Below are positions 347-25,918 of a stretch of DNA of 25,918 nt, piece by piece. This DNA is from a virus. Every line of letters starts with the position of its first letter. The first letter of the stretch is position 1. A program made the position numbers and the translations under genes. Under the pieces are notes generated by a model. The model made no database searches. It was not told the origin of the DNA and was given only the letters and a program-made list of their open reading frames with translations. Location of the stretch: positions 1-25,918 of the IMG/VR virus record IMGVR_UViG_3300028298_000029. One strand, written 5' to 3'.

Positions 347-360
347 ATGTTGCACAACAT
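347..360. promoter_or_regulatory. Palindromic operator candidate, site 1
   Basis: ATGTTGCACAACAT is a 14-bp inverted repeat broken only at the central base pair. It is nearly identical to the perfect palindrome ATGTTGTACAACAT at 23962. It lies 33 bp upstream of a degenerate copy at 380-393, about three helical turns, which suits cooperative binding by a dimeric repressor. That the site binds protein is inference. Confidence 0.6.
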
Positions 361-379
361 AAAAAAAAACGCTCAAAAC

Positions 380-393
380 ATGCTTTACAACAT
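380..393. promoter_or_regulatory. Palindromic operator candidate, site 2 (degenerate)
   Basis: ATGCTTTACAACAT keeps the right half-site ACAACAT and an imperfect left half. The distance from its end to the downstream TTTACATCA string is exactly the same as that from the perfect palindrome at 23962 to its own TTTACATCA. This suggests that the two upstream regions derive from one module. Confidence 0.5.
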
Positions 394-402
394 ACGAAAT
401 TA

Positions 403-434
403 TTTGCAAATACATAATATATGTATTATATTTA
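403..434 (+). promoter_or_regulatory. Bacteroidota-type promoter for the left small-gene operon
   Basis: TTTG at 403-406 is followed after 20 bases by TATATTTA at 427-434. This is one base away from the TTTG / TAnnTTTG consensus of the primary sigma factor of Bacteroidota. A 7-bp inverted repeat, ATACATA-ATA-TATGTAT, fills much of the spacer. A 25-bp stretch around the -7 box is repeated almost exactly near 23997-24021. Confidence 0.55.
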
Positions 435-478
435 CATCATCAAACAGAACGATCTGGGAGATATAAAACTTGCAAATC

Positions 479-754
479 ATGAAAACGCTAAACGGAATTT
501 TTGAGGTAAAAGACTTAGAACAATTATTAATCGAATGTGAATTTGATAATGAAGATTGTCAAGAAGCAACAGAGAGAGCAATCAAAAATATACCTCTCTT
601 AGAAGCAACATATTCAGAGGGCCTGGGTCAGTCAATGTATCTCACATTTTCAGAAGGGGATAGGGGTTATTGTATCCTTTCTTTCAATAAGGATGAAGAT
701 ATTGTGAATGATACTATTGATCGGATTGAATCACTGATTGAAATTATTGATTAA
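479..754 (+). CDS. Hypothetical acidic protein
   Basis: The product is a 91-residue acidic soluble protein of unrecognised family. The ATG at 479 is preferred to the in-frame TTG at 470 because the preceding bases are A-rich, as is usual for Bacteroidota starts, and because the TTG extension adds only three residues. The C-terminus (EDIVNDTIDRIESLIEIID) is probably helical. It is the first gene behind the palindrome/promoter module at 347-434, so it may be expressed under the same control as the pentapeptide-repeat gene at 24099. A structured RNA element separates it from the next gene. Confidence 0.65.
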   Translation: MKTLNGIFEVKDLEQLLIECEFDNEDCQEATERAIKNIPLLEATYSEGLGQSMYLTFSEGDRGYCILSFNKDEDIVNDTIDRIESLIEIID

Positions 755-840: not shown

Positions 841-1056
841 ATGAACGAAATTAAGTATTTTAAGTCAGGTAGAATTTATTACAAGTTTACAAATTACACT
901 TTTGAGAAAGTTTACGCATTCAAATACTGTTTTGGCATTGAAAAGAATCTGAGGGCAAGTATTAACATTGAATACGACGATGTTGATGGTTATGAGATAA
1001 CAGCAGCTCAGTACAACCGTGCCCGCCGTTTAATCCTTTTAAAACTTACAAAATGA
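841..1056 (+). CDS. Hypothetical small protein
   Basis: This 71-residue basic protein is rich in tyrosine and arginine and has no recognised family. The ATG follows an A-rich tract immediately downstream of the three-way-junction RNA at 758-824, so that RNA may control its translation. Its stop overlaps the next start in an ATGA arrangement, which implies translational coupling with the zinc-ribbon gene. Confidence 0.6.
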   Translation: MNEIKYFKSGRIYYKFTNYTFEKVYAFKYCFGIEKNLRASINIEYDDVDGYEITAAQYNRARRLILLKLTK

Positions 1057-1244
1057 AACCACACGACCCCGAATTTAAGTGCCCTATTTGTGAGTGCGAA
1101 TCAATCATGAAGGTATCAGCAACCCCCTTCACTACTAACGGCGTTTGTCGTGAATGCTTTCATAAGGCTAATATTGACCAGTTCGCCGTTGAGGATGAAC
1201 AGGAAAGAGCGGATCAAATTGCAAATTATTACGACTACCAATGA
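1053..1244 (+). CDS. Small zinc-ribbon protein
   Basis: The 63-residue protein carries CPIC at residues 10-13 and CREC at residues 32-35, the two CxxC knuckles of a treble-clef or zinc-ribbon fold. An additional cysteine (CEC) follows the first knuckle. The C-terminal third is acidic and helical. Such mini zinc ribbons are common in phage accessory operons and often contact nucleic acid or protein partners, but no target is evident here. The gene overlaps both neighbours by four bases (ATGA), so the three genes 841-1525 are probably translated as a coupled set. Confidence 0.65.
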   Translation: MKPHDPEFKCPICECESIMKVSATPFTTNGVCRECFHKANIDQFAVEDEQERADQIANYYDYQ

Positions 1245-1525
1245 AAACAATAACAGATGAACAGATTCGGGAAGAAGCGGAAAAGTGGATAGACCTTAAT
1301 CAAGACAATTATCCAAGTCACTGTGTGCAGAGTAGATTTTGGACAATTAAAATGCTGTCGGAGTGGTATCGCTCCCAAACAGGGCAGGAATGGGTTGATG
1401 GTAATGAGAGGTTGCCAGAAGATAATCACATCGTAGCACCAGGTCAACCTCAGACAAAAATAGTTCTTCTAAATGACGGAACTGTTTTGATGGGAAAATA
1501 CGAATCACACGTTTGGAATATTTAG
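1241..1525 (+). CDS. Hypothetical protein with a DUF551-like stretch
   Basis: The 94-residue protein contains WVDGNERLPEDNHIVAPGQ and then VLLNDGTVLMGKYES. This recalls the W-x(4-6)-LP / variable / G-x-Y pattern of the short DUF551 proteins found in phages. The resemblance is by eye only. The N-terminal half is helical and acidic. It is the last clear gene of the left operon, and a weak terminator follows at 1537-1560. Confidence 0.55.
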   Translation: MKTITDEQIREEAEKWIDLNQDNYPSHCVQSRFWTIKMLSEWYRSQTGQEWVDGNERLPEDNHIVAPGQPQTKIVLLNDGTVLMGKYESHVWNI

Positions 1526-1605
1526 CGGTAATAGCCACAGTTAACGCAGCACTGTTTTTTGTGTGGGTAATGATTGAGAAAAATGTGAGTGATACAAGGT
1601 ATTGA
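1513..1605 (+). CDS. Possible 30-residue single-pass membrane peptide
   Basis: From a TTG at 1513 a short frame reads MEYLAVIATVNAALFFVWVM followed by a charged tail, ending in TGA at 1603-1605. It overlaps the end of the preceding gene by 13 bases. The strongly hydrophobic core and polar C-terminus look like a small membrane protein. However, the start is non-ATG, and a weak terminator-like hairpin (1537-1560) lies within it. Treat as speculative. Confidence 0.22.
   Translation: MEYLAVIATVNAALFFVWVMIEKNVSDTRY
1537..1560 (+). terminator. Weak intrinsic terminator after the left operon
   Basis: ACAGT (1537-1541) pairs with ACTGT (1551-1555) across a 9-base loop and runs into six T residues (1555-1560). 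The stem is only 5 bp, so efficiency is uncertain. Its position between the small-gene operon and the terminase promoter is appropriate. Confidence 0.35.
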
Positions 1606-1614
1606 AAAATTGTT

Positions 1615-1622
1615 TAATTTTG
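1615..1622 (+). promoter_or_regulatory. Promoter -7 box before the terminase genes
   Basis: TAATTTTG matches the Bacteroidota TAnnTTTG box exactly and lies 47 bases before the small terminase start. No good TTTG is present at the -33 position. The surrounding string ATTGAAAAA-(n)-TTGTTTAATTTT recurs before the gene at 17373. Confidence 0.45.
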
Positions 1623-1668
1623 ACAAAGCATAAAAAGATATTTTAGTCTTTTACAATGTATTTACAAC

Positions 1669-2031
1669 GTGAGAAGAGGTAACCCACATACAATCAAAGG
1701 GAAAGGATTTGACGCACATCCTGAAAACATCAATCGCAAGGGACAGCCGCGCAAGCTGCCTGAATTGGCTGTATTAATGGCTGAGGGAGTTAGTCAATCC
1801 GACCTTTTAGCGATTATTAAGGCTATGTCATTAAGGGCAAAGAAGGGAGATACCAGGGCAGCTGACTTTGTTTTTGATCGTGGTTACGGAAAGCCAAAAC
1901 AGTCAACAGACGTAACTACCAACGGAAAAGACTTGACACCGCAAACAATCATAGTAAAAGACCAGCAGACAGCCAATAATCTAACTGAACTAAAAAAACG
2001 GCTTCATGGAAGCAACGACAGTATTCAGTAA
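1669..2031 (+). CDS. Terminase small subunit-like DNA-packaging protein
   Basis: The 120-residue product has an N-terminal KGKGFDAHPENINRKGQPRK segment, the DUF5681-like GxP/GRP-type motif seen at the start of many phage small terminase proteins. A helical region (LPELAVLMAEGVSQSDLLAI) and a basic, polar tail follow. Its place directly upstream of the large terminase supports a role in recognising the packaging site. The start is GTG, since no in-frame ATG lies nearby. The gene overlaps the large terminase by 26 bases. Family assignment is by motif and context, not by a full domain match. Confidence 0.7.
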   Translation: MRRGNPHTIKGKGFDAHPENINRKGQPRKLPELAVLMAEGVSQSDLLAIIKAMSLRAKKGDTRAADFVFDRGYGKPKQSTDVTTNGKDLTPQTIIVKDQQTANNLTELKKRLHGSNDSIQ

Positions 2032-3136
2032 GAACCTGGAAGCCTATTTATCAGGAAGCAGCCTTATAGTCAATCAGGGCGGAACACGATCATCAAAGAC
2101 CTATTCAATACTTCAGTTACTGGCCTATATCGCTCAGGAGTCAATAGAACCCTTAATAATTTCTGTAGTATCGCAACACCTTCCACACCTAAAGTTAGGT
2201 GCAATGCGTGACATGGATAACATTCTCATTTCTTTGGGTTATGTACCGGATGACATTAAAAACAAAACTGACAATTTTTACAGAATAGGCAAATCAATCA
2301 TAGAGTTTTTTGGTACGGACAACATAGGAAAGGTTCACGGACCATCGCGGGATATACTATTTGCCAACGAGGGCAATTACATGAAGTATGACATTTTTGA
2401 TCATTTGATGGTCCGTACAAAGAAAACCGCTTTTTTGGATTTTAACCCTAACCGGTCATTTTGGTATCATGATAACATACAAGGAAAACAGCCGCACACA
2501 TTCATAAAATCAACCTATCTGGATAATGAATACCTCACACCTGAACAGATCGAACGCATCGAAGCAAAGCGAACCAACCCTTATTGGTGGCAAGTGTACG
2601 GATTAGGGGAGTTGGGTAAACTTGAGGGCACTATATTCAACTGGCAATGGGGAGACTTTGACAATGCACTACCTTACATTTATGGTTTGGACTTTGGGGT
2701 GAAAGACCCGGACGCGATGGTAAAAGTGGCAATTGACAAGGGAAATAAAAAGCTGTATTGGAAGCAGGAAATATATCAAAACAGTTTAAGCACTCAACAG
2801 TTAGGGCAGATCATCAGAAGCAGGGGAGTTAAACAAAATCTTATCGTTGCGGATAACGCAGGACTAAGGACAATAAACGACCTGAGAAATGAAGGATTTA
2901 ACATTGTCCCAATCATTAAACCTAAGATAATCGAACGTATTAAATATATCTGGGATTATGAACTAATCATTGATCCTGGTTCGTTTGATCTTGAAAAAGA
3001 GTTAAACACGTATGTTTGGCTTGACAAAAAGGGCGAGGTGCCGATTGATGAAGATAACCACTTGCTTGATGCGGGCGGGTATGCCACATGGTATTTCAGT
3101 CCTGGATATAGTGGAAGTTATGTAATTTCATATTAA
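2006..3136 (+). CDS. Terminase large subunit (packaging ATPase and nuclease)
   Basis: The 376-residue protein is the motor that pumps DNA into the prohead and cuts concatemers. The ATPase domain has a Walker A loop GGTRSSKT at residues 25-32 and a Walker B strand ILFANE at 118-123. The C-terminal RNase H-like nuclease has three acidic positions in the expected order: GLDFG (D230), VADNA (D284) and LLDAGGY (D356). This arrangement fits the PBSX/Terminase_3 type. It is slightly shorter than the common 400-450 residues, but both domains are complete. A promoter-bearing gap follows, before the portal. Confidence 0.93.
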   Translation: MEATTVFSKNLEAYLSGSSLIVNQGGTRSSKTYSILQLLAYIAQESIEPLIISVVSQHLPHLKLGAMRDMDNILISLGYVPDDIKNKTDNFYRIGKSIIEFFGTDNIGKVHGPSRDILFANEGNYMKYDIFDHLMVRTKKTAFLDFNPNRSFWYHDNIQGKQPHTFIKSTYLDNEYLTPEQIERIEAKRTNPYWWQVYGLGELGKLEGTIFNWQWGDFDNALPYIYGLDFGVKDPDAMVKVAIDKGNKKLYWKQEIYQNSLSTQQLGQIIRSRGVKQNLIVADNAGLRTINDLRNEGFNIVPIIKPKIIERIKYIWDYELIIDPGSFDLEKELNTYVWLDKKGEVPIDEDNHLLDAGGYATWYFSPGYSGSYVISY

Positions 3137-3169
3137 TTTGCATTTGTTTAAATATTATTTGTAATTTTG
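3137..3169 (+). promoter_or_regulatory. Promoter for the portal/head operon
   Basis: TTTG at 3137-3140, a 21-base AT-rich spacer and an exact TAATTTTG at 3162-3169 make a good Bacteroidota-type promoter. It lies 16 bases before the portal ATG at 3185 in the gap after the terminase gene, giving a very short leader. Confidence 0.55.
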
Positions 3170-3184
3170 ATAAAAAATATTAAT

Positions 3185-4492
3185 ATGGGCTTACTCAATT
3201 GGTTTGGAAAGAAGTCATACGAGCAAGTTAACGACCCTGTTAACAACGCTCTTTTAGAAGCTCTTTATAAATTTGCCACTCATTCAGGTTTTGCTCATGT
3301 AATGACAGATGACCCAACGTCCTATCTGAAGCAGGGTTATTCTGGTAATGCTGACGTTTATTCGATCATCAACAGGATAAACCGAATGGCATCACAGGCA
3401 CGTTTGGCACTGTACAAAATAGAGAATGGTAAATGGGTTGAAATACCGGATCATGAGCTTACAATGTTTATCAACGAGGTCAACCCAACGATGAAAACGA
3501 GTGATTTTATTCAAGGCCATTTGATATATAAACTTTCGTTAGGCAATTCATATTGGTACAAGCCAACACTTCAAAACGGATTAAACAAGGGTAAGACGAT
3601 TGAGCTGTGGTTGCTTCCTGCAAACAATGTCCGAATAATGGCGGGGGCAACATGGATGAATCCCATAGGAGGGTATCAGCTCGATACAAATACTACCGTC
3701 ACATTTGACATTAACGATGTTTATCATTCAAAGTTTTTCAATCCGCTGTTTGGAACCGAGACAAGCCTATACGGACAGTCTCCGTTAAAAGCCGCCGCCG
3801 AAACGGTAAGCAAACAGAACCAGGCAGAACTAACCGAGCTAAAACAATTTGAAAACCAGTCTCCGCCGTTTGCCCTGTTTCGCAAAGCAAAGTCAATGAC
3901 CGACCGACTCACGGAGACACAGCGAAAAGAGATAGGCGACATAATGAAGGACGCTACCAAAGCATCAAACAAAGGAAAGCCGGTTATATTTCCAGATGAT
4001 TTTGGAAAGATTGATTTTGGTATCAGTCCTGTTGATTTGAATATTCTTAACTCAAGTATCGAGGGAAGAAGGATCTTATGTAACATATATGGGTTTCCTG
4101 CACAATTAATGAATGACGCCGCAGCTACAACGGATAATAATGTAATGGAAAGTAGGCGTATGGCATGGACTGATTGTATTATTCCAAATCTCAATGACTT
4201 TGCAAGTGATTTAACATCGTTTCTGATTAAGCCGGTCAAAGCGTATGAAGGTTTGTTTTTTGCTTTTGACTATTCGGCTGTCGCTGAACTTCAGAAAGAT
4301 TTGGCAGTACAGGTAACTTGGATGAAGTCTGCCAATTGGACACCTAACGAGATACGGGAAGCAACCGGAGCCAAGCCGATTGATAACCCAATGATGAATG
4401 AACCTTGGTTTGGAATGAGTGAAACACCTTTGAGTGCAATGGCACTTGATGCACAGCCGCCAATCATCCCAAATAAAGGAGACTACAAATAA
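3185..4492 (+). CDS. Portal protein, HK97 family
   Basis: The 435-residue protein forms the dodecameric ring at the capsid vertex through which DNA passes. It starts MGLLNWFGKK and has an early YSIINRINRMAS helix. Its C-terminal half has the portal-family pattern IYGFPAQLMNDAAATTDNN followed by ESRRMAWTDCIIPNLNDF. The ATG at 3185 is preferred to the in-frame TTG at 3167, which lies inside the promoter box. Length and position between terminase and head genes are normal for the family (Phage_portal). Confidence 0.92.
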   Translation: MGLLNWFGKKSYEQVNDPVNNALLEALYKFATHSGFAHVMTDDPTSYLKQGYSGNADVYSIINRINRMASQARLALYKIENGKWVEIPDHELTMFINEVNPTMKTSDFIQGHLIYKLSLGNSYWYKPTLQNGLNKGKTIELWLLPANNVRIMAGATWMNPIGGYQLDTNTTVTFDINDVYHSKFFNPLFGTETSLYGQSPLKAAAETVSKQNQAELTELKQFENQSPPFALFRKAKSMTDRLTETQRKEIGDIMKDATKASNKGKPVIFPDDFGKIDFGISPVDLNILNSSIEGRRILCNIYGFPAQLMNDAAATTDNNVMESRRMAWTDCIIPNLNDFASDLTSFLIKPVKAYEGLFFAFDYSAVAELQKDLAVQVTWMKSANWTPNEIREATGAKPIDNPMMNEPWFGMSETPLSAMALDAQPPIIPNKGDYK

Positions 4493-4548
4493 ATTGATCT
4501 CCGCTCGCTGACGAAATAAGACTAATTGAGTAAATAAGGTTAATATTA

Positions 4549-5326: not shown

Positions 5327-5340
5327 ATGTTATATAACAT
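5327..5340. promoter_or_regulatory. Palindromic operator candidate, site 3
   Basis: ATGTTATATAACAT is a perfect 14-bp palindrome of the same form (ATGTT-N4-AACAT) as those at 347 and 23962. It occupies the position where the -33 element of the downstream promoter should lie, so a bound protein would be expected to block transcription of the protease/capsid unit. Confidence 0.5.
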
Positions 5341-5350
5341 ATTTATTTTA

Positions 5351-5358
5351 TACTTTTG
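5351..5358 (+). promoter_or_regulatory. Promoter -7 box before the prohead protease
   Basis: TACTTTTG matches TAnnTTTG exactly and lies 15 bases before the protease ATG at 5374. There is no TTTG at -33, because that place is taken by the palindrome at 5327-5340. Confidence 0.45.
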
Positions 5359-5373
5359 ATAAAAATTAAGGTT

Positions 5374-6054
5374 ATGAAGCACGATCTGAGATTCAAAAAT
5401 TTCAAGGTTGACGGATTCAAGCAAGACGATATCAATCAACTTATCATAAATGGATGGGCTGCTGTCTTTGGAAATGTTGACAGTTACGGAGATGTGATAC
5501 AGCCTGGAGCCTTTGCCAAAACAATCACAGACAGAAAAGACCGGATAGCGTTCTGTTATCAGCACGAGATGGATGAACCGATCGGAAAGATTCTTTTACT
5601 CGAAGAGCGTCCGTTTGGTTTATGGGTCGAGGTGGCTATCTCAGCATCAGAAGGGGATATTCAAACAAAGATCAAAGAAGGTATTTTAAAGGAAATGTCC
5701 ATAGGATACCGAACTATCAACAGCACCGAAACGATTGTTAATGAACAGACAATCTATAATCTGACAGAGATTAAGCTATACGAGATTAGCCTTGTAACTA
5801 TTGCGGCCAACGAACTGGCAACCATAGAGGGCATGAAATCAGAGGAAAAGAAAACCTATTTTGATGATGCTTTTGAAAGGTTGATTGTTACAGAACGGGG
5901 AGAAAAGAAAAGATTTGAATTAATGAAACTTAAAGCACAAATAATTGCACTCATTGACAGGGAGCCGGAGACCAATAAGGAACACACTCCAGACACTGAG
6001 CCGCCGCAGATATTCGACATTGACAGTAAAAAACTTATTAATCTTTTATTTTAA
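5374..6054 (+). CDS. Prohead protease, HK97 (S78) family
   Basis: The 226-residue serine protease matures the capsid by cutting scaffold and capsid precursors inside the prohead. The early NGWAAVFGNVDSYGDVIQPGAF signature is typical. The catalytic histidine is His64 in FCYQHEMDEPIGKI, and the catalytic serine is Ser109 in LKEMSIGYR. A charged tail after about residue 160 is probably the self-processed or scaffold-like part. The ATG at 5374 is chosen over an in-frame upstream TTG within the promoter box. The capsid gene, its expected substrate, begins 5 bases downstream. Confidence 0.93.
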   Translation: MKHDLRFKNFKVDGFKQDDINQLIINGWAAVFGNVDSYGDVIQPGAFAKTITDRKDRIAFCYQHEMDEPIGKILLLEERPFGLWVEVAISASEGDIQTKIKEGILKEMSIGYRTINSTETIVNEQTIYNLTEIKLYEISLVTIAANELATIEGMKSEEKKTYFDDAFERLIVTERGEKKRFELMKLKAQIIALIDREPETNKEHTPDTEPPQIFDIDSKKLINLLF

Positions 6055-6059
6055 AAACC

Positions 6060-7295
6060 ATGAATGAACTCGAATTAAAAGCTGCCATTGACGCAGCTGA
6101 CAAAAAGAGGGATGAGATGAAAGCAGAATTGAAAACTGCCATCGATACCCAAAAAACTGAACTTCTTGCAAAATTGGAAGAGGTTGAAACTCTTCGCAAA
6201 ACCATGCAGACTCAACTGGATGAAATTGCAACCGAACAGGCCAAAGCAAAAAAAGAAGGAGTATCAAAAGAGACTGTAACTTTTGCAGCCGAACTGAAAT
6301 CAGAACTTCAGGCCAAGATTGCAGAATTGCAGTCATTGAAAGCTCGTAAGGGAGGGGCTGTTTCGATCGAACTGAAATCATTTTTGGAAAGCGCAAATGC
6401 TTCCATCACTACCGGATCGTTATTGCCAACACCTCAATTTGAGGTAGGAGTTTCAAAAGCTCCTGACCGGATGCCTTTCCTGTTAGACATCATCACTACC
6501 GGATTTTCATCCAGTAACGTAGTGTATTGGGTACAACGCAAAACTCGCACCGACAACAGCGGAACAGTTACAGAGGGCACAGTTACGAAAGTCGGCGGCG
6601 GTTCTGTTACTCAATCCGTTTTGAGTTACGAAACCAAAAACGCTACGATGCAGGACATGTTGGCATTCATTAAAGTTTCAAACAACTCCATTGATGATAT
6701 CGACTGGCTGTTGTCTGAGGTTCAAACCGAATTGCTGACACTCATGGCACTTGATTTGGATGCAAATCTTTTGACTGGTGCAATTGCAACCGAAGGCTAC
6801 GATGGTATTTTGACCGGAGCAACAGCATTCGCAGCCGGTGGTAAAAAATTGAAAGCAGAAGTAGTTCCGAACAATTATGATGCTCTCAAATTTGCCGCAA
6901 CGCAAATCAAGAAAGCTCATCATCGTCCGAACTATGTCGTTCTCAACCCAGACGACCTTTTAGCGATGGAATTGGAAAGGGATGCAGACGGAGCATATTT
7001 GTTCCCTCCTTATCTGGCCGTACAGCCTCAATTTGCCGGTGTTCGTATCATCGAAAATACAGGTATCACATCGGGAACTTACCTGATTGGTGACTTTTCA
7101 AAAGCAAAATTCTGGATGCGTAAGGGGATGGATCTGAAAATCCACGATCAAAACGAGGATGACGCTATCACCCAATTGAAAACCGTCACTCTCTACATGA
7201 GGGGTGTACTGGTTGTAAAAGCAGCAGATGCAACAGCATTTGTTACCGACACTTTCGCTGATACTATCGCTGAGATCACTTCGGCAGGAGCATAA
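6060..7295 (+). CDS. Major capsid protein, HK97 fold, with N-terminal scaffold
   Basis: The 411-residue protein builds the icosahedral shell. Residues 1 to about 95 are a highly charged heptad-patterned coiled coil, the delta domain that acts as internal scaffold. A likely maturation cut lies near residues 95-105 (ARKGGAVSIELK). The HK97 fold follows, including the SANASITTGSLLPTPQ start, a long-helix region with ALDLDANLLTGA, the NPDDLLAME peptide, and a C-terminal LYMRGVLVVKAADA strand. Its position directly after the protease is canonical. A GC-rich hairpin follows the stop. Confidence 0.94.
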   Translation: MNELELKAAIDAADKKRDEMKAELKTAIDTQKTELLAKLEEVETLRKTMQTQLDEIATEQAKAKKEGVSKETVTFAAELKSELQAKIAELQSLKARKGGAVSIELKSFLESANASITTGSLLPTPQFEVGVSKAPDRMPFLLDIITTGFSSSNVVYWVQRKTRTDNSGTVTEGTVTKVGGGSVTQSVLSYETKNATMQDMLAFIKVSNNSIDDIDWLLSEVQTELLTLMALDLDANLLTGAIATEGYDGILTGATAFAAGGKKLKAEVVPNNYDALKFAATQIKKAHHRPNYVVLNPDDLLAMELERDADGAYLFPPYLAVQPQFAGVRIIENTGITSGTYLIGDFSKAKFWMRKGMDLKIHDQNEDDAITQLKTVTLYMRGVLVVKAADATAFVTDTFADTIAEITSAGA

Positions 7296-11317: not shown

Positions 11318-12955
11318 ATGGGAATGATTGGAGATTTATTTGTAAAGCTGGGTTTAAAATCAGACGAGTTTAATAAAGGACTCGATGATTCAAAAAAGAA
11401 AGCTGAGGGGTTTGGATCATCAATTGGAAATATCTTTAAGCAAATGGCCTCCGCTTTGGGGTTAGATGGACTTTTATCAAAATTCACATCTGCAACACAA
11501 GGAATACAGGCATTTTTTGTATCAATGAAAGCGGCGGCTGCGGGAGGTACTATTTTCAGTGGTGCGATGAAGATAGTTCAAGCTGCCTTAGTATCTACAG
11601 GAATTGGTGCCATTGTCGTTGCATTGGGTGCGCTTGTATCATATTTCACAATGACAGAACGGGGAGCAGAATCACTTGAAAGAGGATTGGCAGGATTAAA
11701 GGCTGCATTCTCTGTTTTGGTAGATAGGGCTTCTGCATTTGGCGAAGGGTTAGTTAATATATTTTCAGGTAAATTTTCTGATGGATGGGATAAAATTAAA
11801 GGTTCAGTCAAAGGTGTAGGTGCGGAAATGAATAAAGAGGTATCTACTGCTATGCAATTAGCCTCACAGTTGCAAGACCTGGAGGATAAGGAAAGGAATT
11901 TAACCGTTTCATTGGAAGAACGGAGGGCAAAGGCCGCACAGTTAAGGGTTGAATCAAGAGAAGAGGGTAAGACAGCAGCCGAAAGAAAGGCACTGATTAA
12001 CGAGGCGGCCGCACTATATAAATCAGTATTCAAAGACGAAAAAGCGATAGAATCAGAGAGGGCACGGATCATGCAAGCCCAGATAGATTTAGGAGAAACA
12101 CGTGACGAGGACTTACTTAAATTAGAACAGACCAAAGCAAAAGCCATTCAAAAAGATACAGAGTTGGCAATGACATTAAAAATGTTGAGCCGAGAAATGG
12201 GAGCTATTAATGGAGCTTTGGCCTCAGAATTAAAATTAAGGAACGATGTTAACGATGCGCTTTCTAAGCCCATGAAAGCTAATCAGGAAATAATAGGAAC
12301 GATAAAAAAGAATATAACCGTTGAAAATGGATTATTTAAAGCACCGACAGAAGGGTTAATGGATATAAAGACAGGCGATTTAGGTCTTGCTGATATAGAA
12401 TCTAAAATGACTACCGGAGACGCTGCGATGGCTGCGGCAATGGAAGAAAAGAAGACACAAGTTAAACAATTCAATGACAGCCTAAATGGATTGATCGCTT
12501 CAGGTATGGCATCGGCTGCAATGACTTTCGGGGCGGGTATCGGTTCGCTAATGTCTGGGGATATGAACGTGGGTGAGTTTGGAATGTCTCTGCTCGCTTC
12601 GGTCGGTAATTTCATTGTGCAGTTTGGAGAAATGATGATAACACAGGCTTTGGCACAAGCGGCGCTATTAGCTTCAATCTCTAATCCTTTAATGTGGCCT
12701 TTGGCTTTGGCTGCTGGTGTTGCTTTGGTCGCGGCTGGTACTGCACTATCGAACATATCAAAGAAAGGATTAAGCGGAGGGGCTTCATCCGGCGGAGGTG
12801 GTGGAGGAGGTAGTGCTGCATCGGGATACACGGGCAAACAAAATCAATCATCAGCATCTGACGCATTGGCAGGAAATGTTACCTTTGAGATACAGGGAAA
12901 TAAATTAATTGGGGTTATGAACAACGTTGACAGACGCAACCAAAATTTTAAATAG
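11318..12955 (+). CDS. Tape measure protein
   Basis: The 545-residue protein sets tail length and is ejected into the host envelope. It begins MGMIGDLFVKLGLKSDEFNKGLDDSKKK, the usual tape-measure opening. It has a hydrophobic stretch at about residues 80-112, a long charged coiled coil at about 165-300, a second hydrophobic block at about 420-485, and a Gly/Ser-rich linker near the end (SSGGGGGGGSAASG). By the usual rule of about 0.15 nm per residue, the tail would be near 80 nm. It is short for the family. Gene order (chaperones, then tape measure) confirms the call. Confidence 0.88.
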   Translation: MGMIGDLFVKLGLKSDEFNKGLDDSKKKAEGFGSSIGNIFKQMASALGLDGLLSKFTSATQGIQAFFVSMKAAAAGGTIFSGAMKIVQAALVSTGIGAIVVALGALVSYFTMTERGAESLERGLAGLKAAFSVLVDRASAFGEGLVNIFSGKFSDGWDKIKGSVKGVGAEMNKEVSTAMQLASQLQDLEDKERNLTVSLEERRAKAAQLRVESREEGKTAAERKALINEAAALYKSVFKDEKAIESERARIMQAQIDLGETRDEDLLKLEQTKAKAIQKDTELAMTLKMLSREMGAINGALASELKLRNDVNDALSKPMKANQEIIGTIKKNITVENGLFKAPTEGLMDIKTGDLGLADIESKMTTGDAAMAAAMEEKKTQVKQFNDSLNGLIASGMASAAMTFGAGIGSLMSGDMNVGEFGMSLLASVGNFIVQFGEMMITQALAQAALLASISNPLMWPLALAAGVALVAAGTALSNISKKGLSGGASSGGGGGGGSAASGYTGKQNQSSASDALAGNVTFEIQGNKLIGVMNNVDRRNQNFK

Positions 12956-15055
12956 ATGGCATACCAGAAAAAATATTGGTTTGAATTTACTTCGCTTGAC
13001 AATAAAGTTAATCGGGTCGAACTATGGCAGGATACAGTTATTACCCTGACAGCCGAGGAAGTTGAATCAATGGGTATGCCTTTTTCAATTGAAATGCCGG
13101 ACCTATCCCATAAATTCCAAGTGGCACGCGGGACGGGTTGCGAGATTAATCTACTCAGTTCATCAGATCGTAAGTTTTTTGCAGGGTTATACCATACCCA
13201 AATGAAAGAATTTATGATTAAGCACTATATTGATAATACAATCAATTGGCTTGGATATCTGAACAGCGAGATGGTCCGAGAATCATATAGCGAATATGTC
13301 AACTATCCTTTTCAGATCACAGGAAATGACGGCTTTGCTTTATTGGATCGGTTGCAGTTTCTTTCAGATACAGGATTAAAATATTCAGGTATTTCGTCGA
13401 TTTATTTGCTTCTAAAAATAGCATTGGATCGCATCGGGTTACCGTTTGGAAGTATATTTATTTCCCTTTCGTCAACTTTTACAGCTTATAGCGGGTCGGC
13501 AAGTAGCTCAATCCTGCATGAAATGTTCGTAGATACAGCTAATTTTTACAATGAGGACGGCATAGCTGAAACGATGCGTAAAGTTATAGAGGGTTGTTTG
13601 CAACCTTTCGGGGCTTGTATCACGCAAATAGGCGGCGACATTTGGATAACCGATTCACATACATTAGCAACTGGTTCGGGATCGTTCAAAGAGTTTGATT
13701 TTGCTACCGATGCTTATGTAGCAACGGCAACAGTTAATCTGATTAAAGATATTTCAGATATTGGCTATATGGGTACAGGGTCAGATATTGAGATGAGCGG
13801 AGGTAAGAATAAACAGGTAGTAACCTATTCGCCTTACCCGCTTAAAACGGTATTTCCTGAATCTCTTTTAAACGAGAGCGAGTGTGATCCAATTGCGCCA
13901 GAAGTTACATGGTCAACAAAAGATCCTTCAAATCAAGGGTATGCAACGAGATATCTACATTACAAATCTGCTGCAAATCACGCTGTTTATAATGTTTATT
14001 CTCCTGGATTGTTAGAATTAAGTTATGCACAGAACGATAGAGGATTGTCTTTAATTGGTGAATTAGAAGAGGATGCTTGTATAAATATTTATACTAAAGG
14101 TTCGACTGGTGCATCCACAAAAATACTGGATTTAAAGACAGCGCAGGAGGCGTATATTTCAGGTGCTATTAGTAAAAGTTTATCTGATACTAAAACAAAT
14201 AGAGGGTTAAAAATAAAGATTAGTGGCGAGGTTTATTTACGGGTAAATTTGGCAGATAATAAAGGTATCGGATCACTTGCTTTAAAATGCATGCTAAGAA
14301 TAGGAAGCAAATCATTGAGCGATACGGGTGAATTCTTAGCTGCAACAGAATCGGCATGGGTTGCATACCCTGGAGCACCGCAAACATATCACTACATCAA
14401 AATAAACAAAAACGGAAAAGACATTAAGCATGGTTGGGTTCCGTTTGAGTTTGACGGAAATCCTCACAATATAGAAATAAAAACATCGGTAGGAGGAATA
14501 ATTTATTTTGAAATATACTCGGATTATGAGTTTCAGCGTTTTGATGGAACGTTGCACCGGAATAATGCAGACTGGTCAAACGCTATTAGAATACGAAAAT
14601 TAACCCTGTCAATGACAGATATTGATACAGAGGAAGAGGTAGGCGACAAAGACGTAGAGTTTCAGGGATATTTAGATAAGACCGTAAAAGAAGAAGCCGA
14701 ACAAATCAGATTGATATGTGGTACTGATACAACAGGAATTGATAGAGGTAAGTTGATGTATGCCGATTCAGGAGCTTACACACCAATAACAGCCTTCACC
14801 CGCGCAAGTCAGACGCAAAAAATTGAATATCTTTTATTAAATTCGCTTTCGTCAAATTATCGTTTCGGGTATCTCACAATCAATGCTTTGAAACTTGAAA
14901 ACAAGTTCAACCAATTGTCGGTAATTACAGATACAGGCATAATTTCGGATAAAAAGTTCATGGTTAAATCCATGTCTGTAAACTTCAGGGATAACTTAGT
15001 TGAAACAGCAATAACAGAGTTAAGAGTAGATTCATTAACAATAACACCTTACTAA
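12956..15055 (+). CDS. Tail tip / baseplate protein of Bacteroidota siphophages
   Basis: The 699-residue protein follows the tape measure gene directly, its ATG starting just after the preceding stop. This is the usual place of the distal-tail/tail-associated (Dit/Tal) proteins. The N-terminal 120 residues are beta-rich and contain SIEMPDLSHKF and INWLGYLNSEMVRESYSEYV followed by YPFQITGNDGFALLDRL, a pattern I associate with Bacteroidota phage baseplate hubs. A middle part contains Cys- and Gly-rich strands (GGDIWITDSHTLATGSG). The C-terminus again looks beta-rich (MSVNFRDNLVETAITELRV). No enzymatic motif is seen. The exact part it forms (Dit, hub or both) is inferred. Confidence 0.7.
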   Translation: MAYQKKYWFEFTSLDNKVNRVELWQDTVITLTAEEVESMGMPFSIEMPDLSHKFQVARGTGCEINLLSSSDRKFFAGLYHTQMKEFMIKHYIDNTINWLGYLNSEMVRESYSEYVNYPFQITGNDGFALLDRLQFLSDTGLKYSGISSIYLLLKIALDRIGLPFGSIFISLSSTFTAYSGSASSSILHEMFVDTANFYNEDGIAETMRKVIEGCLQPFGACITQIGGDIWITDSHTLATGSGSFKEFDFATDAYVATATVNLIKDISDIGYMGTGSDIEMSGGKNKQVVTYSPYPLKTVFPESLLNESECDPIAPEVTWSTKDPSNQGYATRYLHYKSAANHAVYNVYSPGLLELSYAQNDRGLSLIGELEEDACINIYTKGSTGASTKILDLKTAQEAYISGAISKSLSDTKTNRGLKIKISGEVYLRVNLADNKGIGSLALKCMLRIGSKSLSDTGEFLAATESAWVAYPGAPQTYHYIKINKNGKDIKHGWVPFEFDGNPHNIEIKTSVGGIIYFEIYSDYEFQRFDGTLHRNNADWSNAIRIRKLTLSMTDIDTEEEVGDKDVEFQGYLDKTVKEEAEQIRLICGTDTTGIDRGKLMYADSGAYTPITAFTRASQTQKIEYLLLNSLSSNYRFGYLTINALKLENKFNQLSVITDTGIISDKKFMVKSMSVNFRDNLVETAITELRVDSLTITPY

Positions 15056-23961: not shown

Positions 23962-23975
23962 ATGTTGTACAACAT
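23962..23975. promoter_or_regulatory. Palindromic operator candidate, site 4 (perfect)
   Basis: ATGTTGTACAACAT is a perfect 14-bp palindrome, one base different from site 1 (347) and sharing its half-site ACAACAT with site 2 (380). Its spacing to the downstream promoter equals that of site 2 to the left promoter. Confidence 0.65.
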
Positions 23976-23984
23976 ATAAAATAA

Positions 23985-24016
23985 TTAGGTAATATGTAAT
24001 ATATGTATCATATTTA
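23985..24016 (+). promoter_or_regulatory. Promoter for the pentapeptide/accessory operon
   Basis: TTAG at 23985-23988 and CATATTTA at 24009-24016 lie 20 bases apart, each near the Bacteroidota TTTG / TAnnTTTG elements. The 25-bp stretch TAATATATGTAT-C-ATATTTACATCA repeats that near 415-439 with a single change. The leader to the ATG at 24099 is about 75 bases. Confidence 0.5.
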
Positions 24017-24098
24017 CATCAGTTAAGAAACAATTAAAAAACGACAAAGGGGCGATATTCTATTTTTTAATATTTATTCACAATAATTTGAAACGAAA

Positions 24099-24746
24099 AT
24101 GAAAACGAAAATCGAGATTAAATCTATTTGGGGTTCAGTATTGTTTTCACATGAAAAAGAAGACAACACAATTAAAGATACTTTGCAGGGAGCCAATTTG
24201 CGGGAAGCCAATTTGCAGGGAGCCGATTTGCAGGAAGCCGATTTGCAGGGAGCCGATTTGCAGGGAGCCGATTTGCAGGGAGCCGATTTGCAGGAAGCCG
24301 ATTTGCAGGGAGCCGATTTGCAGGAAGCCGATTTGCAGGGAGCCGATTTGCAGGGAGCCGATTTGCAGGGAGCCGATTTGCAGGGAGCCGATTTGCGGGA
24401 AGCCGATTTGCAGGGAGCCGATTTGCAGGGAGCCGATTTGCAGGGAGCCGATTTGCAGGGAGCCAATTTGCGGGAAGCCGATTTGCAGGGAGCCAATTTG
24501 CAGGGAGCCAATTTGCAGGGAGCCGATTTGGATATGTGTGCTTATTCTTTATCATGTGCCAGTCTAAAATTCAAGTCAGATTTGCGAATCAGAACACAAA
24601 TGGCATTTCATTTTGCTTCACTAATTGCAAATGCCGATCAGGAAAACGTAACAGACGTAGAAAGAAAAATCTATTCTACAATGCTTGAGTATGTCAATCG
24701 GTTTCATCGGACAGACGTTGCCAAACTTCCAACATTAGAGCCATAA
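24099..24746 (+). CDS. Pentapeptide-repeat protein
   Basis: The 215-residue protein has a 28-residue N-terminal part (MKTKIEIKSIWGSVLFSHEK...), then 23 consecutive pentapeptides of the form L-(Q/R)-(G/E)-A-(D/N) at residues 29-143, and a 72-residue helical C-terminus ending HRTDVAKLPTLEP. Pentapeptide arrays form a right-handed quadrilateral beta helix. Some family members mimic DNA and bind gyrase, but the function of phage members with such a C-terminal domain is unknown. It is the first gene after the palindrome/promoter module, so it is probably expressed early or under the same repressor as the left operon. Confidence 0.85.
   Translation: MKTKIEIKSIWGSVLFSHEKEDNTIKDTLQGANLREANLQGADLQEADLQGADLQGADLQGADLQEADLQGADLQEADLQGADLQGADLQGADLQGADLREADLQGADLQGADLQGADLQGANLREADLQGANLQGANLQGADLDMCAYSLSCASLKFKSDLRIRTQMAFHFASLIANADQENVTDVERKIYSTMLEYVNRFHRTDVAKLPTLEP
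24183..24527 (+). repeat. 15-bp tandem repeat array (23 units)
   Basis: The unit TTGCAGGGAGCCGAT is repeated 23 times in frame. Only three base positions vary: CAG/CGG, GGA/GAA and GAT/AAT. All synonymous third positions are constant, so the array has been homogenised or expanded recently. The same repeat keeps long frames open on both strands (reading PICRE, PCKSA and NRLPA units), which are not considered genes. Confidence 0.92.
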
Positions 24747-24810: not shown

Positions 24811-25023
24811 ATGACAGCAACAGTATCACAAAACGAGGCCATCAAAGCACATTTACTCAGCGGTAAAAGCCTGACAAGTTTGGAAGCTCTTTATAAATTC
24901 TCATGTCTCCGATTAGGTGCAAGAATTTGGGAACTGAAAAAACAAGGGATGAACATTAAGCCTGAGTTCATCGAAATCAACGGAAAGCACATTGTTAAAT
25001 ATTCATTAAACTTTTTATCATGA
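24811..25023 (+). CDS. Small helix-turn-helix protein (HTH_39-like)
   Basis: The 70-residue protein reads TVSQNEAIKAHLLSGKSLTS, LEALYKFSCLRLGARIWELK, then KQGMNIKPEFIEINGKHIVKYSL. It closely follows the pattern of the HTH_39 helix-turn-helix family found in Bacteroidota phages and mobile elements (QN-x-I-x-x-L-x-x-G-x-S-x-T-x-x-E-A..RL-x-x-R-I-x-x-L). It is a DNA-binding candidate and could act on the palindromic sites in this window, though the fold is often monomeric. It overlaps the next gene by four bases (ATGA). Confidence 0.75.
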   Translation: MTATVSQNEAIKAHLLSGKSLTSLEALYKFSCLRLGARIWELKKQGMNIKPEFIEINGKHIVKYSLNFLS

Positions 25024-25184
25024 CAGACAGCAGAGGACCAAAGCCAAAACCAGCCGGACAGACGGTTAAAAACGTCACTATCTACGTCAAAGAACTCGAC
25101 ATAATCGCACTGGGCGGGATCGTTCGGGTACGGATGATCGTAAAGGACTTCATTGCAAACGAACTTAAAAAACTTCAGCCATGA
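25020..25184 (+). CDS. 54-residue basic protein, possible ribbon-helix-helix regulator
   Basis: This small frame encodes MTDSRGPKPKPAGQTVKNVT followed by IYVKELDIIALGGIVRVRMI and VKDFIANELKKLQP. The basic N-terminus, a beta strand (KNVTIYV) and two helices match a ribbon-helix-helix layout. Similar GPKPK-start proteins occur beside HTH_39 genes in Bacteroidota phages. It overlaps both neighbours by four bases, which supports translation. Ribbon-helix-helix proteins are obligate dimers that bind palindromes, so it is a reasonable candidate for the ATGTT-N4-AACAT sites. This is inference. Confidence 0.65.
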   Translation: MTDSRGPKPKPAGQTVKNVTIYVKELDIIALGGIVRVRMIVKDFIANELKKLQP

Positions 25185-25415: not shown

Positions 25416-25652
25416 ATGACAGCACTATTAGCAGCACTATTCTTTTTTATCCTATCGTTATCCTGTTACGTTGTCTATCAGCTTCAGGTTGAAAAAAACA
25501 AGCGTAAACAGCACGAAAGCGAAACCAGGAAGCTACTCAGGAACCAAGACCCTGACGACATTAGAGACCGTAAGATGATCGAAGAGGTCAGAAAGTACAA
25601 ATGGAATCATGAATTTGATGAAACAAAGTACAGCGATGAAGTCTACCGGTAA
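25416..25652 (+). CDS. Small single-pass membrane protein
   Basis: The 78-residue protein has one N-terminal membrane helix (TALLAALFFFILSLSCYVVY) followed by a highly charged cytoplasm-type tail of about 55 residues (QVEKNKRKQHESETRKLLRN). The ATG at 25416 is chosen. A longer version starting at a TTG (25386) would overlap the upstream gene. No function can be assigned. The stop is directly followed by the inverted-repeat region that brackets the next start. Confidence 0.6.
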   Translation: MTALLAALFFFILSLSCYVVYQLQVEKNKRKQHESETRKLLRNQDPDDIRDRKMIEEVRKYKWNHEFDETKYSDEVYR

Positions 25653-25658
25653 CGTATG

Positions 25659-25768
25659 GTGGTATGGTTAGTTGGGGATTAGAGACCGACAACCTATCCA
25701 CCGAGTATAAACTTAATAAATTGATATAATGACGAATAACGCAGAAAAACCCCAATTAACTATACCAC
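25659..25768 (+). promoter_or_regulatory. Long-range RNA helix around the last gene's start
   Basis: GTGGTATGGTTAGTTGGGG (25659-25677) pairs along 19 bases without interruption to CCCCAATTAACTATACCAC (25750-25768), with two G-U wobbles. The loop of 72 bases contains the ATG at 25729. A competing shorter stem GGTGG/CCACC (25658-25662/25698-25702) uses the same 5' strand. This looks like a translation-control switch. There is no T tract. Confidence 0.55.
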
Positions 25769-25918
25769 GTGTTATCGGCTGCTTTTCTCATCGTGATTTG
25801 TGTTTTAAGGCTGCAAAATACCTTAGAAATAAAGGAATACAGCCATTTCATAAAAGCCAATACGTTGTTTGCGAATTGGAAAGAGTTGGAGAAAGCCCAG
25901 ATGCTTTTGGTTTTGGTG
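25729..25918 (+). CDS. Truncated gene, possible PD-(D/E)XK nuclease (5' part only)
   Basis: The frame starts at ATG 25729 and runs off the window, giving 63 residues: PQLTIPRVIGCFSHRDLCFK, then AAKYLRNKGIQPFHKSQYVV and CELERVGESPDAFGFG. The final VGESPDAFGFG resembles the first catalytic segment (G-x-x-PD-x-x-G) of PD-(D/E)XK nucleases of the kind with a later E-x-K motif (MmcB-like or phage endonucleases). The second motif would lie beyond the window, so the call cannot be confirmed here. The inverted repeat at 25659-25768 covers its start. Confidence 0.5.
   Translation, partial: MTNNAEKPQLTIPRVIGCFSHRDLCFKAAKYLRNKGIQPFHKSQYVVCELERVGESPDAFGFG

Follow-up and report, generated by a model that had tools for sequence, protein, structure and literature searches.

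Predicted Cur sites in the phage genome

The DNA analysed here (the window) is the complete 25,918-base virus record IMGVR_UViG_3300028298_000029. It carries palindromes upstream of its operons that are likely to be sites for the host carbon-limitation regulator Cur (BT4338 of Bacteroides thetaiotaomicron), which is predicted to activate these phage operons; the expression of the virus genes is probably tied in this way to the nutritional state of the host. The step from sequence to binding relies on the published motif of the regulator, and the direction of control was inferred from the position of the sites.

The window encodes a terminase, portal, head protease, major head protein and endolysin. 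The genes that bear on the proposed regulation are as follows.

479 to 754, plus strand: first small ORF of the left operon, no assigned function
841 to 1525, plus strand: further small ORFs (841-1056, 1053-1244 and 1241-1525), preceding terS/terL
5374 to 6054, plus strand: head maturation protease (phrog_80); the major head protein is encoded after it, at 6060-7295
24099 to 24746, plus strand: pentapeptide-repeat protein, first gene of the right operon (PF00805, E 1.2e-58)
24811 to 25023, plus strand: small HTH_39 winged-helix protein (PF14090, E 2.8e-11)
25020 to 25184, plus strand: 54-aa protein, no family found

The TerL protein is closest to those of Bacteroides and Parabacteroides phages (38%) and the capsid protein to those of Flavobacterium phages (31%). 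The palindromic motif and the TerL relatives together point to a Bacteroidales-type bacterium as the host. A terL prophage search for the host gave only 31-41% matches in genomes, an alignment scan with TerL gave no further relatives, and no DNA relatives were found among deposited phages. The small ORFs at 841-1525 have homologues at the same place in contig L001. The left operon has a GC-rich inverted repeat (ccgccaag...ttggcgg) at 755-830, separating its first two small ORFs, possibly an attenuator or terminator.

Using the search pattern ATGTT-N4-AACAT, in which a central TA was not demanded, four palindromes were located.

347 to 360, no strand: Cur-type palindrome, perfect, ATGTTGCACAACAT, a tandem upstream copy 33 bp above the copy at 380
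380 to 393, no strand: Cur-type palindrome with one mismatch to ATGTT-N4-AACAT, ATGCTTTACAACAT
5327 to 5340, no strand: Cur-type palindrome, perfect, ATGTTATATAACAT, overlapping the -33 region of the head-protease/capsid promoter
23962 to 23975, no strand: Cur-type palindrome, perfect, ATGTTGTACAACAT

A preliminary description of this DNA had given ATGTT-N4-AACAT palindromes at 380 and 23962 and listed an extra copy at 347; the copies at 23962 and 347 are indeed perfect, but the one at 380 is not, and the perfect copy at 5327, before the capsid operon, had been overlooked. The latter sits directly before the head-protease start at 5374 and has the highest box profile score in the window (28.3 bits, against 19.9 bits at 347). 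Three perfect palindromes compare with a mean of 0.10 in shuffled sequence, and none of 300 shuffles contained three or more. When two mismatches are tolerated, the motif does not rise above background (31 matches, 26.6 expected), so that only near-perfect copies are meaningful.

The consensus wwwTATGTTnTAnAACATAwww was derived for the Crp-like BT4338 by Ravcheev and colleagues (PMC3878776), and the window palindromes match its core, with perfect arms at 347, 5327 and 23962 and one mismatch at 380. The central TA of the consensus is present at 380, 5327 and 23962, while 347 has CA instead, and in all four palindromes the core is preceded by C where the consensus has T. At the fusA2 promoter a 22-bp box of this form is required: without it, BT4338 neither bound the promoter nor activated it when carbon was limiting, as Townsend and colleagues showed by deletion (PMC6989115).

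Promoter modules

Downstream of the palindromes lie the following promoter elements.

403 to 406, plus strand: -33 element TTTG, 9 bp after the palindrome at 380, a spacing as in chromosomal modules
427 to 434, plus strand: -7 element TATATTTA, 5/6 of TAnnTTTG, 33 bp after the palindrome at 380
5351 to 5358, plus strand: full -7 element TACTTTTG, 10 bp after the palindrome at 5327
23985 to 23988, plus strand: -33 element TTAG, 9 bp after the palindrome at 23962
24009 to 24016, plus strand: weak -7 element CATATTTA (4/6), 33 bp after the palindrome at 23962

The modules at 380 and 23962 share the arrangement palindrome-N9-TT(T/A)G-N20-(T/C)ATATTTA. The Bacteroidetes promoter TTTG-N19..20-TAnnTTTG fits the left module as TTTG-N20-TATATTTA, and TTAG-N20-CATATTTA in the right module is a weak match to it; the threshold for listing -7 elements was 5/6 matches, and CATATTTA, which falls below it, was read from the sequence. 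It had been proposed that each palindrome lies 37 bases upstream of a shared TTTACATCA box within nearly identical 25-bp promoter DNA. The distance is exact (to 431-439 and 24013-24021) and the 25-bp stretches (415-439 and 23997-24021) differ at one base. The TTTACATCA sequence is present in both modules as described, but it is the 3' half of the -7 element plus the following bases, and was rejected as a separate binding box; with one mismatch it occurs 14 times in the window (12.2 expected) and is not distinctive. Over 66 bp the two modules are 83% identical, and since this likeness exceeds the palindrome itself, a shared origin of the modules is likely.

A module profile was built from 103 chromosomal modules of bacteria, with no viral input. 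This profile gave 37.5 bits at 23962 and 36.1 bits at 380, whereas the next site in the window reached -1.7 bits and shuffled windows at most 2.1 bits. The 33-bp distance from box to promoter, which matches the chromosomal peak of 33-34 bp, holds at 380 and 23962 but not at 5327 (10 bp). A chance origin of the palindromes is ruled out by the shuffles, the spacing and the independent chromosomal profile.

Conservation in related phages

Two related phage records were searched for the motif. G001 (IMG/VR 3300028176_000020, 24 kb), with 98% DNA identity over 1033-4493, overlaps the right end of the window and supplies the early region. It contains five perfect palindromes, each before an operon.

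G001, 334: before the pentapeptide gene
G001, 4981: before a RecT-like gene
G001, 8073: before a helicase-methylase
G001, 12724: before the small-gene operon preceding terS
G001, 18673: before the head protease

The G001 promoter at 12724 is homologous to the left one of the window, with TTTG-N20-TAAATTTG and the same distance from box to -7 element. In G002, a diverged relative (80% TerL identity), boxes were found before the helicase (10967, one mismatch) and before the head protease (21992). A palindrome at the head-protease promoter is kept in all three phages, although its central bases differ and its distance to the -7 element is 10 bp in the window (5327), 19 bp in G001 (18673) and 30 bp in G002 (21992). 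No clear -7 element is recognisable 33 bp from the boxes before recT and helicase. Of the ten boxes of this phage group, which include one near-identical pair, seven have the central TA of the Cur consensus. A further module-profile match in G002, at 13879, was discarded as a promoter without a palindrome.

These relatives bear on whether the likeness of the two window ends is just a duplicated promoter stretch without regulatory meaning. The 83% identity continuing past the palindrome would fit such an event, but the palindrome at 5327 belongs to a different promoter, and boxes are kept at the same operons in relatives while spacer length and central bases change. We therefore regard a meaningless duplication as extremely improbable.

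The relatives also differ from the window in gene content. Window and G001 (contig L006) diverge right after TAACGTAT, with the first mismatch at 25658, and carry different accessory genes beyond this point; in the window (25650-25779) the next start after the divergence lies between the arms of a 19-bp inverted repeat, GTGGTATGGTTAGTTGGGG / CCCCAATTAACTATACCAC. Small genes of G001 at 1767-3790 are separated by TAACGTTG/GTTAGGTG-like repeats, of which one hairpin has a z of -3.95 while most folds are no better than shuffles. These repeat-flanked accessory genes resemble integron-type gene cassettes, here in a phage. The pentapeptide-repeat protein (window 24150-24540; L006 550-650) is 215 aa long in the window but 130 aa in G001; the two versions carry different numbers of GCCGATTTGCAGGGA-type repeats, and this number therefore changes quickly. 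Around the portal and head-morphogenesis genes of the relative, two inserted ORFs have no counterpart in the window (L001, 12534-13052 and 14096-14266); by eye they resemble a GIY-YIG nuclease and an AP2-domain protein, i.e. mobile endonuclease genes, and the ORF at 14096-14266 directly precedes the Cur-type box of the head-protease operon.

The module on bacterial chromosomes

In bacterial and archaeal genomes the strict module was found at no fewer than 119 loci, all but two of them Bacteroidota by title and most Bacteroidales, a count among matches listed or preselected by the pattern and hence not a frequency. The spacings among these 119 listed loci were 9+20 (80 loci), 10+19 (24), 10+20 (13) and 9+19 (2), the first two accounting for 104. 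From their translations, the downstream genes were read as including gdhA, greA, xylulokinase, serC and luxS. For a less selected test, 99 Bacteroidales genomes were searched for the palindrome with a -7 element at a distance of 19 to 48 bp and no demand for a -33 element. The resulting 133 sites showed peaks at 22-23 bp (25/133) and at 33-34 bp (28/133, p 5e-8), with a weaker hump at 42-44 bp that was not significant. If the -7 element starts near -11, these distances would place the palindrome centres near -41, -52 and -62. Of these, -41 corresponds to class II and -62 to class I of the classical CRP-dependent promoters. The pattern suggests that the box of Cur-type promoters can stand at more than one position, shifted by a helical turn (22-23 and 33-34 bp), for which no description was found in the literature searched.

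Geometry also bears on the direction of control. BT4338 has been reported both as an activator and as a repressor (PMC6989115), and Cur or a paralogue could bind mainly as a brake that holds the phage operons down in starvation; the box at 5327, which overlaps the -33 region of a capsid promoter with a full TACTTTTG -7 element, would suit such a role. The modules at 380 and 23962, however, have their boxes at 33 bp, a distance over-represented on host chromosomes, leave the -33 and -7 bases free of the box, and have weak -7 elements (5/6 and 4/6) as expected of activator-dependent promoters, which makes a brake unlikely as the main function.

The module in other viral contigs

IMG/VR was scanned for the palindrome with -33 and -7 elements at variable gaps, giving 98 stretches among the matches listed. 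In this set, 60 matches had a total distance of 33 bp over three gap combinations, or 20 per combination, as opposed to 0 to 6.3 per combination at other distances; like the bacterial counts these are not frequencies; contigs that are nearly the same were counted separately, and some sites appear under two gap settings. When the -33 requirement was dropped in a second scan, the matches listed again peaked at 33-34 bp. The 33-34 bp module was found in dozens of viral contigs (matches listed), which may hold prophage edges and host DNA, and among 79 distinct viral modules of this spacing a location within a long ORF is uncommon, and an ORF usually begins a short distance downstream. RecT-like annealing genes follow the module in L065, the L067 group, L263 and L357, and an antirepressor follows it in a contig also present in a Candidatus Azobacteroides assembly (L100, L172); in L257 the downstream gene is an integrase, and in L022 it is a head protease with portal and terminase genes next to it. 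Sites thus occur at promoters, above chance, in several phage lineages, including the RecT operons of several contigs.

The motif is not a general property of Bacteroides phages, as no perfect box was found in the three isolate phages BO1, PM116P4 and snusmum9-1. Module profile maxima were at most -1.6 bits in one Bacteroides and one Parabacteroides isolate phage and 11.0 bits in a Flavobacterium phage.

Identity of the regulator

The preliminary description had suggested that one dimeric regulator controls both operons, and the recurrence of a palindrome at a fixed distance upstream of the promoter supports this at the level of sequence. It had also named the proteins encoded at 24811 and 25020 as candidates, and this part did not hold up: the motif is that of Cur/BT4338, it occurs in the same geometry on Bacteroidales chromosomes, and nothing ties the HTH_39 product of 24811 to it.

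A phage-encoded dimeric regulator (the HTH_39 protein, the 54-aa protein or the product of an unseen gene) does have some points in its favour, in that the 24811 product is a winged-helix domain whose gene lies inside the operon driven by the 23962 promoter, and an RHH protein upstream of the G001 recT box is another candidate. The case for the HTH_39 and 54-aa proteins amounted to their presence, and both were set aside. The palindromes match the published Cur consensus, HTH_39 has no known link to a palindrome of this kind, and the same motif with 33-bp geometry stands before metabolic genes on host chromosomes and in many viral contigs, so that we consider a phage regulator very unlikely. 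No PF13545 (Crp-family) protein was detected in the three phage records G000, G001 and G002, all fragments, which do contain small HTH and RHH proteins, while all four bacterial genomes examined have PF13545 proteins. The regulator of the phage boxes is therefore most likely the host's own; because the records are fragments, a phage-encoded one may possibly lie outside them.

Within the host, the several PF13545 proteins of Bacteroidales-type genomes, up to seven in a Prolixibacteraceae genome, raise the question of whether another Crp/Fnr-family paralogue is responsible. In the literature searched, a published match to the motif exists for Cur only. With a published BT4338 primer as a landmark, Cur orthologues were located in five same-family genomes; identity to the Crp proteins was 72-74% in Bacteroides sp. 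Marseille-P3684, 52-57% in Prevotella and 50-53% in Tangfeifania (Prolixibacteraceae), and the recognition-helix segment NMTTSNAIRTLS is kept in all three genera. The Tangfeifania orthologue has a one-mismatch box, ATGCTGTAAAACAT, 29 bp before its start, in line with the proposed autoregulation of BT4338, and its altered half-site is the same as that at 380 in the window. A paralogue other than Cur thus appears quite improbable.

BT4338 is now named Cur; it is silenced by glucose or fructose and governs gut colonisation and sugar use in Bacteroides (PMC10294740), and it is thought to work without cAMP (PMC12548429). Once preferred sugars are exhausted, host Cur would become active and its dimer would bind the boxes at 380 and 23962, where it may recruit or stimulate RNA polymerase at the weak -7 elements 33 bp downstream. 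Bound at 380, Cur would switch on the small-gene operon before terS, with 347 as a putative tandem upstream site three 11-bp steps away, and at 23962 it would switch on the pentapeptide/HTH_39 operon. At 5327, where the box overlaps the -33 region of the capsid promoter, repression would be as likely as activation.

Comparison with known systems and significance

The phage sites resemble those of the Cur/BT4338 regulon, such as the fusA2 box, in the 14-bp core, the preference for a central TA, the A after the core and the position before a TAnnTTTG -7 element; they differ in being predicted sites in a phage genome, before phage operons, and in having C rather than T before the core. The use of host master regulators by phages is already known. 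CtrA is used by phages of Alphaproteobacteria for lytic deferment (PMC9437464), likewise with master-regulator sites at the promoters of unrelated phages; that case concerns another regulator and phylum and a cell-cycle rather than a nutritional signal, and binding and regulation were shown there by experiment, whereas the sites here are predictions from sequence. Host PhoBR controls cyanophage genes (PMC10976474) and is also a nutrient-limitation regulator, but it senses phosphate through a two-component system, as opposed to carbon and a Crp-like regulator here. CRP controls pir of phage T1 (PMC6737242), so that there too a Crp-family protein couples phage decisions to sugar supply, although through cAMP-CRP at one phage regulator gene in Escherichia coli, compared here with predicted control of several operons by a regulator believed to be cAMP-independent. 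No report of phage use of Cur or of Cur boxes in phages was found in the open-access literature searched, and the one paper joining phage and Cur, about surface-layer resistance, found little role for Cur; as far as this search goes, Cur boxes in phages are new.

It is in our view an evenly balanced question whether the Cur regulon has been joined independently by the recombination, early and packaging operons of many unrelated Bacteroidota phages, so that host starvation, in place of a regulator encoded by the phage, times or scales infection. The interest of the system lies in a carbon-supply signal in gut-type bacteria and in the presence of the module in many viral contigs. The 33-bp-spaced module is easy to scan for, which makes the link between phages and Cur testable across viromes, and it offers a hint, drawn from regulation, as to which host group an orphan viral contig belongs to. 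If phages do read Cur, the expression of their genes in Bacteroides-type bacteria would be set directly by diet and starvation.
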